Shown: one piece after another, positions 34,511 through 39,150 of the stretch
Position numbering within the stretch: position 1 is the first letter of the stretch
Layout: every line of letters begins with the position of its first letter
Notes under the pieces: model-generated
What the model saw: only the letters and a program-made list of their open reading frames with translations
Databases searched by the model: none
Told to the model about the DNA's origin: nothing
DNA from: Desulfurispora thermophila DSM 16022
Lineage (GTDB): Bacteria > Bacillota > Desulfotomaculia > Desulfotomaculales > Desulfurisporaceae
Assembly (NCBI RefSeq): GCF_000376385.1
Contig: NZ_AQWN01000010.1
Span: 231-64,230, forward strand
DNA: 64,000 bases
Direction: 5' to 3'
Position numbers and translations under genes: made by a program

Positions 34511-34544
34511 GGAGGGCGGGTTGCTAAGCTAATACCCGCCCTCC
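34511..34544. terminator. Convergent terminator before pabC
   Basis: An eleven-base perfect stem (GGAGGGCGGGT with ACCCGCCCTCC) encloses a 12-base loop that contains the pabC stop codon. Confidence 0.8.
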
Positions 34545-35332
34545 TGTTGCATTAATACATAATATTTTGCGGCCAGCGGCCCGGGACGACCACCGCCTAC
34601 CGGACGGTTTTCCAGATAAGATACCGGCATGAGCAGCAGCAATGAGTTGGTCAGCCAGACCTCCTGAGCCCGGTAAAGGTGCTCAGGGTAAATGATCTCT
34701 TCCCGCACATCCAGCCCCTCCCGCCGGGCCACCTCCATCAGGCGCGCCCGGGCCACCCCAGGCAACAGGCCGCATTGCAGTGGAGGCGTCCGCAGAACCC
34801 CATTCTGCAGGACAAAAATATTGCTGATGGTCCCTTCACAAACCTGTCCGTCCGTATTCAGCCACAGCGCTTCCTGCCACCCCGACCGCCGGGCCTCCTC
34901 CCGGGCCAGCAAATTATTCCAGCAACAGATGGTCTTGTGCTGTAACAGGGGATCGGCAGCACTGCGTTGCCAGGGTACCAGCCCCAACCGCCAGCCCTGC
35001 CGGTAGTCTTCGGCCCGGTAAGGGAGCGGGCGGCACTGTATAAACAGACTATCGGTCAAGGTCAGCCGTACCGCTCCATCAAACACCTGGTTGGCGGCAA
35101 CCGTTTTCTCGATCACTTGCACCAACCGGTCAGCGCTGAAATCTACGGTCAATCCCAGGATGCGGGCGGAGGTTAGCAAACGATGCAGGTGTTGGTCCAG
35201 CCACATCACCCGGCCCGCGCTCACCCGCATGGTTTCAAAGAGCCCCCGCCCGTAAAGCAACCCGCTGTCCGGGCGGCCACCCGGCAGGCTGTCCAGAGGA
35301 CAAAGTTGCTGGTTATAAAACACCCAGTGCAT
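34529..35332 (-). CDS. pabC: Aminodeoxychorismate lyase PabC (class IV PLP enzyme)
   Basis: The 267-residue enzyme releases p-aminobenzoate and pyruvate from aminodeoxychorismate. The PLP lysine is in HKTICCWNNLLA, and GQVCEGTISNIFV is the class IV signature. The fold is shared with branched-chain aminotransferase, but the neighbours pabA and pabB settle the role. I start at the ATG at 35332, eight bases after GGGAAG. Confidence 0.93.
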   Translation of the reverse strand: MHWVFYNQQLCPLDSLPGGRPDSGLLYGRGLFETMRVSAGRVMWLDQHLHRLLTSARILGLTVDFSADRLVQVIEKTVAANQVFDGAVRLTLTDSLFIQCRPLPYRAEDYRQGWRLGLVPWQRSAADPLLQHKTICCWNNLLAREEARRSGWQEALWLNTDGQVCEGTISNIFVLQNGVLRTPPLQCGLLPGVARARLMEVARREGLDVREEIIYPEHLYRAQEVWLTNSLLLLMPVSYLENRPVGGGRPGPLAAKYYVLMQQEGGY

Positions 35333-35358
35333 GGTCTTCACTTCCCGGTACAGATTTT

Positions 35359-36894
35359 TTACTTTTTCCAGTAAAGCTCATACATGCCGCCCGGTTCCGG
35401 TAAACCCAGCGCCCTTAAAAGGGCCCTGGCTTTATCATGTGTTTCCAGGTATTCGGCCAGCGGATCGGAATCTATGGTCACGCCCCCGCCGGTGTTGAAA
35501 ATAATTCGCCCGTTGTGATACACCAGCGTACGAATGACTATATTCAGATCGGCCTGACCATCAAAACTCAAATAACCAATGCTGCCACAGTAAAGCCCCC
35601 GCCGCACCGGCTCCAGTTCTTCAATGATCTCCATGGCCCGGATTTTGGGCGCCCCGGTCACCGAACCACCGGGAAATGTCGCCTGGAGCAAATCCACCAG
35701 GTCGCGTCCTTGCTCCAGTTCCCCCTGCACAATGGAAACCAGGTGAAAGACCGTCGCATATTCCTCCAGGCGATACAGTTCGGACACCCGCACACTGCCC
35801 GGCCGGCAGACCCGGCCCAGATCATTACGCTCCAAATCAACAATCATGACCAGTTCGGCCCGGTCCTTTTCACTCTGCCAGAGTTCCCGGCGCCAGAACT
35901 CGTCCTCCTCCCGGGTGCGGCCGCGCGGCCGGGTCCCCTTGATCGGCCTGGTCTCCACCCGGCCATGTCGCACCTGCAAAAAACGCTCGGGAGAGGAACA
36001 GACCACTTCTAAACCGGGGAAATTAATATAAGCTGCCATGGGCGCGGGATTCATGTGGCGCAACCGCTGGTAGAGCTGCCAGGAAGGCACCAGCTGAGGC
36101 AGGCAAAAGCGATGGGTCATATTGACAATAAAAACGTCCCCGGCGGCTATGTAGTCCTTTATTTTTTGTACCGCCCGGCAATATTGCTCCCGGCTCAGAT
36201 CGGCCCGTACCTTTACCTCTCCGCCCCCGACCACCGGAATGCAAACTCCTGTCCCGACCCGGCCTATCCCATTGCCCGGATCATAAGCGCTGGCAATACG
36301 CTCCTGCCAGGTATCCAGCCGCCGGGCAGCCCGCTCAGCAGCGGTGAGTGGCGGTGCTGGCAAACCATTGGCCACCAGGTAGACCAGCTCCTCCTGGTGG
36401 TCAACAATGAGCGCCCAATCGTAAAACCCCAGCACCATATCCGGCAATTGATCTTCCAACCCGGCCAGTTCGGGCAAGCGTTCAATCTGCCGCCCCAGGT
36501 CGTAGGCAAAACAGCCCACTGCCCCGCCAGCAAAAGGCAAGCCGCTATCCAGAGCGGGCAAACGATACAGGGCCAGCAAACGCTGCAATATTTGCAGCGG
36601 CGCGGCGGCAAACCATCTATTAAGGGGAAGATCGGGCCGCACTGCTTTGGTGCATTCAGATCTCCAGTGCAAATAAACCTGGTAACCATGGCTGTACAGC
36701 ACCAGGAAAGGATCGGCACCCATTAGCGACCAGCGGGTAAAACCCGGCACGGCCAGACTGCTGTCCAGCAAAAAGCTATAAGGAAAGGCACGCAGGGAAC
36801 TGTACAATCCCACCGGGTCGGGCGGTAGATCCGTGCTGCGCCAGCACACACCGGGCCAGGTCGCTTCCAGTGACTTTTTATTATCCCATTGCAC
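35359..36894 (-). CDS. pabB: Aminodeoxychorismate synthase component I PabB
   Basis: The 511-residue enzyme aminates chorismate with ammonia from PabA. PIKGT at 317-321 carries the lysine typical of PabB, where anthranilate synthase TrpE has PIAGT. DLERNDLGRVC, PGGSVTGAPKIRAMEIIEELE and FNTGGGVTIDSDP are the chorismate-binding blocks. The start is GTG at 36894 after AGGGGTG. It is second in pabA-pabB-pabC. Confidence 0.94.
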   Translation of the reverse strand: MQWDNKKSLEATWPGVCWRSTDLPPDPVGLYSSLRAFPYSFLLDSSLAVPGFTRWSLMGADPFLVLYSHGYQVYLHWRSECTKAVRPDLPLNRWFAAAPLQILQRLLALYRLPALDSGLPFAGGAVGCFAYDLGRQIERLPELAGLEDQLPDMVLGFYDWALIVDHQEELVYLVANGLPAPPLTAAERAARRLDTWQERIASAYDPGNGIGRVGTGVCIPVVGGGEVKVRADLSREQYCRAVQKIKDYIAAGDVFIVNMTHRFCLPQLVPSWQLYQRLRHMNPAPMAAYINFPGLEVVCSSPERFLQVRHGRVETRPIKGTRPRGRTREEDEFWRRELWQSEKDRAELVMIVDLERNDLGRVCRPGSVRVSELYRLEEYATVFHLVSIVQGELEQGRDLVDLLQATFPGGSVTGAPKIRAMEIIEELEPVRRGLYCGSIGYLSFDGQADLNIVIRTLVYHNGRIIFNTGGGVTIDSDPLAEYLETHDKARALLRALGLPEPGGMYELYWKK

Positions 36895-36978: not shown

Positions 36979-37584
36979 TCAAGCGCTGGCCAGATCCCCT
37001 GATATGTGGCGCCACCGCTCACCCAGCCGCAAGAAGTTGGCCAGCAGATCCAGGCCGTCCGGTGTGAGCACCGACTCGGGGTGGAATTGCACTCCCTCCA
37101 CCGGCCAATACTTGTGACGCAGACCCATGATCTCGCCCTGCGCCGTGGTGGCCGTAACCTCCAGACAATCGGGCAGACCCTCCCTGTCCACCAGCAGGGA
37201 GTGATAGCGGCCCGCCGGCAGTGGCAGCGGCAGGCTTGTAAAAACCCCCCGTCCGTCGTGCCACACCAATGATGCTTTGCCATGCATGGGCCGCCGCGCC
37301 CGCACCACCCGGCCGCCAAAGGCCTGGCCAATGGCCTGGTGGCCCAGGCACACGCCCAGAATGGGGATGCGCCCGGCAAACTGGCGGATGGCATCCAGGC
37401 AGATGCCGGCTTGATCCGGAGCGCAGGGCCCCGGCGAGAGCACCAGGTAATCGGGGGCCAGCGCGGCAATCTCGGCCAGAGAAATGCAATCATTGCGCCG
37501 CACCAGCACCTCCTGGTCCAGCAGGCGAAAATACTGAACTAAATTGTAGACAAAAGAATCATAATTATCAATCATTAAAAGCAA
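36979..37584 (-). CDS. pabA: Glutamine amidotransferase PabA/TrpG
   Basis: The 201-residue class I glutaminase supplies ammonia to PabB and perhaps also to TrpE, as the amphibolic subunit of Bacillus does. The nucleophile is C79 in GVCLGHQ, and HPES provides the histidine-glutamate pair. The TTG at 37584 gives the canonical [11 protein letters not shown] start and follows GGGAGAG at eight bases. A GAG-repeat leader and terminator stand directly upstream, which would fit control by tryptophan through TRAP. Confidence 0.93.
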
Positions 37585-37613: not shown

Positions 37614-37639
37614 AAAAAAGACCAGCTTGACCGCTGGTC
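37614..37639 (-). terminator. Attenuator-like terminator in the pab leader
   Basis: GACCAGC and GCTGGTC pair over seven bases around a six-base loop, and six T follow on the minus strand. It stands about 30 bases before the pabA start and downstream of the pab promoter, so it can only act on the pab leader transcript. The last GAG triplet directly abuts its 5' arm. Confidence 0.8.
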
Positions 37640-37719
37640 CTCACCCCGCAGCTCCGAGTCGTCTCATCTCCACTCACCCGCACTCATCTCCGCCCGGCTC
37701 AGCACCGGCAACTCGACTC
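37640..37719 (-). promoter_or_regulatory. GAG-repeat leader of the pab operon (TRAP-binding-site-like)
   Basis: Ten GAG triplets occur in 80 transcribed bases. Their spacers, 5' to 3', are 2, 11, 7, 2, 7, 2, 2, 8 and 9 bases. A spacer of 7 equals one lost triplet in a 5-base register, and the central eight positions keep that register exactly. TRAP binds arrays of GAG or UAG triplets separated by two to three bases, and in Bacillus it controls trpG of the folate operon. The array is seen in the sequence; the regulator is inference, and no mtrB is in the window. Confidence 0.6.
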
Positions 37720-37738
37720 AGCTTTAATTGTGTGAATT

Positions 37739-37768
37739 ATTTTACCACATTGCTGGCTCAAAAATCAA
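37739..37768 (-). promoter_or_regulatory. Promoter of the pab operon
   Basis: On the minus strand TTGATT (37768-37763) and TAAAAT (37744-37739) are spaced by 18 bases. Transcription from it would give a leader of about 150 bases containing the GAG array and the terminator. Confidence 0.65.
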
Positions 37769-37905: not shown

Positions 37906-39150
37906 ATGACCTGGAAAGTAAGACGGCCCCGCCGGCTGAGCCACAACCTGCCCCCGACCGGACAGCTCCGAAATAATTCACCGTGTGCCTGCGGGTTGGC
38001 TGAAAAGGCCCTGTCAATGGTTACCGGACAGATCCTTCGGCAAACAAAGCAAAAAAAGCCGCCGCTGCGCCAGGTCAGCGAGCCCCAATCAGAAAATGCC
38101 GTGCGCGGCCCGCGGAATAGCTTTATAGAAGACCTGGAAACCAACCTCAGGTTATTGAACAAACACCTGCCCGCCCCGGACCTGACCAGAGAAGATATGA
38201 CCCTGGGCCGGGCCAGCCCCACTGCCATCGCCCTGGTCTACCTGCGGGAAAGAGTCCGCCCCGAGCTGGTGGACGAAGTTAAACGCCGGCTGGACAAAAT
38301 AAGTGTGGTTGCCGTGCTGGAGAGCGGCTACATTGAGCATTTCATCCAGGACAGCCCGGCTTCGCCCTTTCCCCAGGTAATGGTCACCGAGCGCCCGGAC
38401 CGGGTGAGCATTGCCCTGCTGGAGGGCCGGGTAGCCATTTTGGCCGACAACACACCCTTTGTCCTGGTGGTGCCGGGTGAGTTGCTCAGCCTGCTGCAGG
38501 CAGCCGACGACTATTACAATAAGCGCCATTTCAACACTTTGGTCAAGCTACTGCGCTATCTGGCGCTGGTAGCATCGCTCATGCTACCTTCTCTGTATAT
38601 AGCCATTACCGCCTTTCATCAGGACATGATTCCCAGCGAATTGCTGATCAACATTGCCGCCGCCCGGCAGGGCGTACCATTTCCAGCTATCCTGGAAGCA
38701 GTATTCATGGAAGTAACTTTCGAATCTCTGCGTGAGGCCGGTATCCGGCTACCCACTGTGGTGGGGCAGACCGTAAGCATTGTGGGAGCCCTGGTCATCG
38801 GCCAGGCCGCCATCCAGGCCGGGCTGGTCTCCCCCCTGATGGTGATCATTGTGGCCTTCACGGGCATCGCTTCTTTCACAGTACCCCAGTACCCGCTGGG
38901 CCAGGCCGTCCGGGTGCTGCGCTTTCCCCTGATGCTGACCGCGGCACTGCTGGGCTTGTTCGGGGTGATGCTGGGCCTGCTGGCCATTCTGTTGCACCTG
39001 AGCGCCCTGCGCACTTTCGGCATACCCTATTTAAGCCCTTTGTCCCCCCTGCAACCTACCCGGCTGGCCGCCAACATCACCCTGCCCCCACAGCACCTGG
39101 ACAAAACCACACCGTCTGAGCAAGACGCAGTTCATCCAGACCAGGCATGA
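37906..39150 (+). CDS. Spore germinant receptor A subunit, lacking the first N-terminal subdomain
   Basis: The 414-residue membrane protein belongs to the GerA/SpoVAF family of the inner spore membrane. A unique, basic stretch of about 60 residues leads straight into VRGPRNSFIEDLETNLRLLNKHL (about 66), which in full-length paralogues comes after some 190 residues. The second subdomain and the five-helix membrane domain (QDMIPSELLINIAAARQGVPFPAILEA) are intact. The cluster 2 paralogue at 43233 has the complete N-terminal region. I infer a shortened germinant-sensing domain. The ATG follows GAGGTG. Confidence 0.88.
   Translation: MTWKVRRPRRLSHNLPPTGQLRNNSPCACGLAEKALSMVTGQILRQTKQKKPPLRQVSEPQSENAVRGPRNSFIEDLETNLRLLNKHLPAPDLTREDMTLGRASPTAIALVYLRERVRPELVDEVKRRLDKISVVAVLESGYIEHFIQDSPASPFPQVMVTERPDRVSIALLEGRVAILADNTPFVLVVPGELLSLLQAADDYYNKRHFNTLVKLLRYLALVASLMLPSLYIAITAFHQDMIPSELLINIAAARQGVPFPAILEAVFMEVTFESLREAGIRLPTVVGQTVSIVGALVIGQAAIQAGLVSPLMVIIVAFTGIASFTVPQYPLGQAVRVLRFPLMLTAALLGLFGVMLGLLAILLHLSALRTFGIPYLSPLSPLQPTRLAANITLPPQHLDKTTPSEQDAVHPDQA

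Follow-up and report, generated by a model that had tools for sequence, protein, structure and literature searches.

The window is the whole 64,000-nucleotide (64 kb) stretch of the Desulfurispora thermophila DSM 16022 genome analysed here. On its minus strand a promoter-like site, an array of GAG triplets and an intrinsic terminator precede a pabA-pabB-pabC operon, whose genes serve synthesis of the folate precursor PABA. The features of the locus are:

37739-37768, minus strand: promoter-like site from a consensus scan, TTGATT (37768-37763), 18 nt, and TAAAAT (37744-37739), with TG before the -10 element
37640-37719, minus strand: array of ten GAG triplets, proposed TRAP binding site, from its array score and the register kept in relatives
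37652-37665, minus strand: core part 1, GAGACGACTCGGAG, of which AGACGACTCGGAG is nearly invariant in a comparison of 41 distinct leaders
37636-37647, minus strand: core part 2, GGGGTGAGGACC, extending into the 5' arm of the terminator, from the same 41 distinct leaders
37614-37642, minus strand: intrinsic terminator, GAGGACCAGC-GGTCAA-GCTGGTCTTT plus T-run (stem 37642-37617, T-run to about 37614)
36979-37584, minus strand: pabA, glutamine amidotransferase of the aminodeoxychorismate/anthranilate synthase type, with a TTG start at 37584 or an ATG at 37575
35359-36894, minus strand: pabB, aminodeoxychorismate synthase component I, above the TIGR00553 cut-off
34529-35341, minus strand: pabC-like class IV aminotransferase/lyase, below all equivalog cut-offs and named mainly by context

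About 30 nt separate the end of the terminator from the TTG start of pabA, and GGGAG at 37599-37595 lies before that start. The upstream neighbour, a GerXA-like gene (37906-39150, plus strand), is divergent, and the terminator is thus not that of a preceding gene. A second glutaminase is encoded elsewhere in the genome, trpG of the trp operon (C3:277692-278249).

The initial annotation had reported a GAG-repeat leader and terminator ahead of pabA, and both are confirmed. The ten triplets fall within 80 nt (37719-37640) and are separated by 2, 11, 7, 2, 7, 2, 2, 8 and 9 nt, with degenerate triplets (GGG, CGG, GAC) sitting in register within the longer gaps. The bare number of GAGs is unremarkable for so purine-rich a leader, as 507 of 5000 shuffles have as many; what makes the array unusual is its spacing. 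When (G/T)AG triplets are scored for lying 2-3 nt from one another, the array reaches 7.0, a value attained by none of 5000 dinucleotide shuffles of the leader, and the next best score in the window, on both strands, is 3.5. The five-base register is likewise borne out, with four GAG pairs exactly 5 nt apart where 0.5 are expected (2 of 5000 shuffles). The suggestion that the array may be decaying did not hold up, since the five-base register of its triplets is maintained relative to a nearly invariant core, described below; that several of them are degenerate nonetheless counts against a TRAP attenuator.

A search for mtrB, the gene for TRAP, had been proposed as a check, and the gene is present (C14:24048-24248; E-value 6e-41). 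Its product scores 139.8 bits against PF02081 (cut-off 21.3) and aligns with solved TRAP structures, agreeing in the GLTRG-DT-FHH, EKLD and SAIKIRG stretches; among the control genomes only B. subtilis gave a match. Across the order, mtrB was found in 105 of 113 genomes. A standalone anti-TRAP gene (PF15777) was not found convincingly in the D. thermophila genome, where one candidate was set aside, a 379-aa frame whose 22.2 bits fall short of the cut-off and probably reflect a DnaJ zinc domain. The sole standalone anti-TRAP-like protein seen in the order has 74 residues (54 bits; G064:C1:1839768-1839935).

A genome scan for triplet runs, using GAGNNGAGNNGAG and its relaxed form, returned the pab leader and three sister leaders, each with a terminator:

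C3:276058: leader array of the trpE operon
C1:125564-125525, minus strand: leader array of a trpP-like ECF transporter gene
C12:61749-61727, minus strand: iorA-like leader with seven GAG/TAG triplets, then two terminators

An array precedes all 24 of the trpP-like genes collected, and its combination with a terminator suggests that these genes are attenuated; trpP of B. subtilis is controlled at translation. No Pfam family matches the trpP-like protein at 1e-10, and the name given to this protein is therefore a homology judgement. That of iorA (indolepyruvate ferredoxin oxidoreductase alpha) comes from the sequence and a POR_N match. TRAP-type arrays were seen in 8 of 30 ior loci, that of D. 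thermophila included, making the iorA-like gene a possible TRAP target, and one that we do not know from Bacillus. The trpP and iorA genes lie about 3 kb apart in many relatives. The analysis took in sixty trpE leaders that have both array and terminator; those of the order (L028-L126 and L023) share a terminator like CCGGYRCTCATTTGAGYRCCGG, in which CUCAU can pair with AUGAG triplets.

For the pab leader itself, 100 loci around PabA/TrpG-like genes were collected for comparison. Array, core and terminator are all present in 26 of the 33 pabA-pabB operons of the order, D. thermophila included, and the array beats all 300 shuffles in 22 of these 26 leaders and is weaker in the other four. Relatives that keep the terminator and lack the triplets, which the initial annotation had named as grounds for abandoning its proposal, generally do not occur; the weakest case is L072 of G015, with a degenerate array. 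The terminator base before ACC changes with its partner, A facing T in 7 of 7 cases and G facing C in 17 and T in 9, and by this alignment the two arms vary together across relatives. Array and core are absent from the remaining seven operons, all in genomes that carry mtrB, which counts against a TRAP attenuator, as does genome G028, where the leader is kept and mtrB gave no match. An assembly gap is the probable explanation in G028, because its trp leader has a full array. The seven operons are L039, L043, L077, L107, L110, L111 and L112, of which L043, L077 and L107 appear close behind another gene.

The gene that follows the leader also varies. In Moorella and several other bacteria pabB is the first gene after the same leader, with no pabA match within 3.5 kb downstream. 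The regulated gene had been taken to be the same amphibolic glutaminase as in Bacillus; the separate trpG of the trp operon and these pabB-first operons lead us instead to regard the PABA branch, and not only the shared glutaminase, as the target.

Between array and terminator the pab leaders share an element that had been overlooked, a core of the form AGACGACUCGGAG-N3-6-GGGGUGAGRACC. Nearly every core position is fixed in the 41 distinct leaders. Some of these were retrieved with a search pattern that itself requires the core, whereas the pab operons of the order were assembled without reference to it. Exceptions occur in single leaders, such as L030, with UAG in place of GAG, and L082, which has GGAGU where the others have GGGGU. 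Upstream triplets in the relatives' leaders stand at offsets -6, -11, -16, -21, -26, -31 and -36 relative to ACUCG; a distance of exactly 5 nt separates 103 triplet pairs, compared with about 10 at nearby small distances. About ten slots of five to six nucleotides are thus visible in the relatives, the last two or three being the GAG-GAC-GAG of the core.

A search for the core alone across 84,980 species gave 31 matches and 29 usable leaders. With the exception of L130, the matches are array-bearing leaders and lie before pab operons wherever the downstream gene can be read; L131 is cut off, and L147 has no pab match in the stretch examined. The L130 match is a chance one, inside a gene of a genome without mtrB. 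All 14 tested genomes with core leaders carry mtrB, three Moorella and Candidatus Formimonas among them. Four core records are labelled Actinobacteria, Flavobacteriales, Armatimonadetes and Deltaproteobacteria (L128, L130, L138 and L146); apart from the chance match L130 they look like mislabelled Desulfotomaculum-like MAGs.

The core is absent from trp leaders. No Rfam family (T-box, THF riboswitch and others) matched above its gathering score, and permissive thresholds also gave nothing credible. The likeness of GGGGUGAGRACC to a T-box is superficial only, as judged by eye, and inspection of the D. thermophila leader likewise showed no start codon at the right distance for the core to be the ribosome binding site of a leader peptide. 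A local GAG-ACGA-CUC hairpin was also considered; it is broken where UAG or CAG replaces GAG, UAG still being a TRAP triplet.

The initial annotation had found no antiterminator, and on this point the leaders divide. A classical one went unnoticed in the trp and trpP leaders, where CUC lies within the terminator stem-loop (52 of 60 trp leaders, 13 of 22 trpP leaders) and can pair with the triplets, in trp leaders with the last of them. In pab leaders CUC never occurs in the terminator, and folding revealed no antiterminator formed by array and terminator, which again counts against a TRAP attenuator. In silico, the trp terminator gains on average 3.5 kcal/mol in stability (P 1e-9) when the triplets are blocked, and that of trpP leaders 2.5 kcal/mol, so that both kinds of leader are predicted to behave as expected of a classical antiterminator; in complete pab leaders the gain is 0.85 kcal/mol (P 0.057; P 1e-4 versus trp).

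Folding of the nascent pab RNA points to a different arrangement. ACUC pairs with the array at 0.74 and ACC with GGGGU at 0.56; with the triplets blocked these values are 0.25 and 0.38, and pairing of ACUC with GGGGUGAG rises from 0.04 to 0.29. Such shifts suggest a relay. Species-swap tests gave no covariation in its support, and we therefore put it forward as a candidate; its GGU-ACC pairing is broken in two leaders (L082, L120). Two further pairings were rejected by the same kind of comparison: that of the 5' leader with the core, for which within-species pairs are no better than between-species swaps, and an antiterminator formed by the N4 stretch and the terminator loop, which reaches -9.9 kcal/mol in D. 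thermophila but does not exceed swapped loops (P 0.73). In the B. subtilis trp operon TRAP induces termination directly, even without the attenuator hairpin (PMC3913778), and what the pab leader lacks thus weakens its claim to be a classical member of the class, not its claim to a like function.

We consider the pab leader very probably to be a tryptophan-responsive transcription attenuator. The array and its register, the terminator, mtrB, the sister leaders, conservation in relatives and the co-occurrence of core and mtrB are read from the genomes themselves, and on them TRAP-controlled attenuation outside Bacillus, as originally proposed, appears well supported; from these we infer that TRAP binds the pab leader, the sign of its effect and the switching step. 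RNA polymerase would start at the promoter-like site at 37768-37739 and transcribe the GAG array. With tryptophan in plentiful supply, the TRAP ring would be loaded with it and wrap the array, and polymerase would halt at the terminator behind it, leaving pabABC untranscribed; when tryptophan is scarce, TRAP would be off the RNA and polymerase would pass the terminator. Two forms of the switch are favoured. Bound TRAP may directly stimulate termination, as in B. subtilis trp, or a short relay may operate in which two pairings form when TRAP is absent, one between GACUC and GAG triplets and the other between GGGGU and ACC.

The alternative that survives best holds that the core is a second sensor, of a chorismate or folate small molecule or of another protein, making the leader a two-input attenuator with TRAP as one input. 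Conservation is far higher in the core than in the array, and array pairing does not explain the core; it occurs only before pab genes, is missing from trp leaders that answer the same TRAP, and resembles no Rfam family. Against this, core and array essentially always occur together, the core triplets keep the register of the array, as expected of part of a TRAP site and switch, and the core is short, with no covarying structure found. We regard an independent second input as unlikely, if worth keeping in view. Considerably less probable is that TRAP binds here and acts mainly on translation or mRNA stability, with the terminator incidental. TRAP does repress translation of trpG in B. subtilis (Yang et al. 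1995, as cited in PMC3913778), but about 55-65 nt separate the end of the pab array from the start codon, the array is clear of the ribosome binding site, and a terminator with covarying arms lies between array and gene. A chance purine-rich leader with an ordinary terminator, consistent with the shuffled GAG counts, is refuted as a complete account by the spacing, the window-wide rank of the array, its conservation in dozens of species and the co-occurrence with mtrB, and is hardly credible.

In its parts, then, the proposed tryptophan-responsive attenuator is of a known kind. As in the B. subtilis trp leader, a TRAP gene is present, (G/U)AG triplets (about 9-11, mostly 2-3 nt apart) stand in a five-base register of the nascent leader, a terminator lies just downstream and before the first gene, and the genes controlled serve biosynthesis from chorismate. 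It differs in controlling PABA genes, in the nearly invariant core that lies between its array and its terminator, in lacking a detectable array-formed antiterminator that competes with the terminator, and in the terminator itself, which combines a GC-rich stem with an almost uninterrupted T-run where that of B. subtilis trp is described as weak (PMC3913778).

The TRAP site of trpG (pabA) in the B. subtilis folate operon involves the same pathway gene and the same regulator. This textbook case is translational and concerns the shared glutaminase: TRAP blocks translation inside the operon, whereas the pab leader stands at the operon head with a terminator, its array stops short of the ribosome binding site, and the leader is also found in related operons that begin with pabB and show no detected pabA. 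The trpE, trpP-like and iorA leaders of the order also combine array and terminator under the same regulator; the pab terminator differs from those of trp and trpP in having no CUC, and blocking the array is predicted barely to favour termination. Searches of the open literature turned up no account of pab genes under TRAP control beyond Bacillus, though subscription papers may hold earlier predictions; as far as the open literature shows, neither the gene set nor the placing of the leader ahead of pab operons has been described, nor have the core and the missing classical antiterminator.

We tentatively propose, at rather less than even confidence, that the core serves as a second element in its own right, working either as a TRAP-driven RNA relay that dispenses with a classical antiterminator or as an independent sensor. 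On this view pab leaders would be a TRAP attenuator class of their own, tying PABA synthesis, and not merely the shared glutaminase, to tryptophan in Desulfotomaculum-like and Moorella-like bacteria. With 41 distinct leaders carrying the nearly invariant core, and trp and trpP leaders as a matched contrast under the same regulator, the pab switching step becomes directly testable.

With these leaders, a large group of anaerobes would have its PABA operons headed by a TRAP-controlled terminator, as part of an outlined TRAP regulon (trp, trpP, pab and ior) that appears to work by attenuation. At high tryptophan TRAP would lower trpG, and lowering pabB as well would keep the synthase subunits balanced where trpG serves both enzymes; in genomes with two glutaminases, that of D. 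thermophila included, the reason for controlling pab may be a shared chorismate economy.
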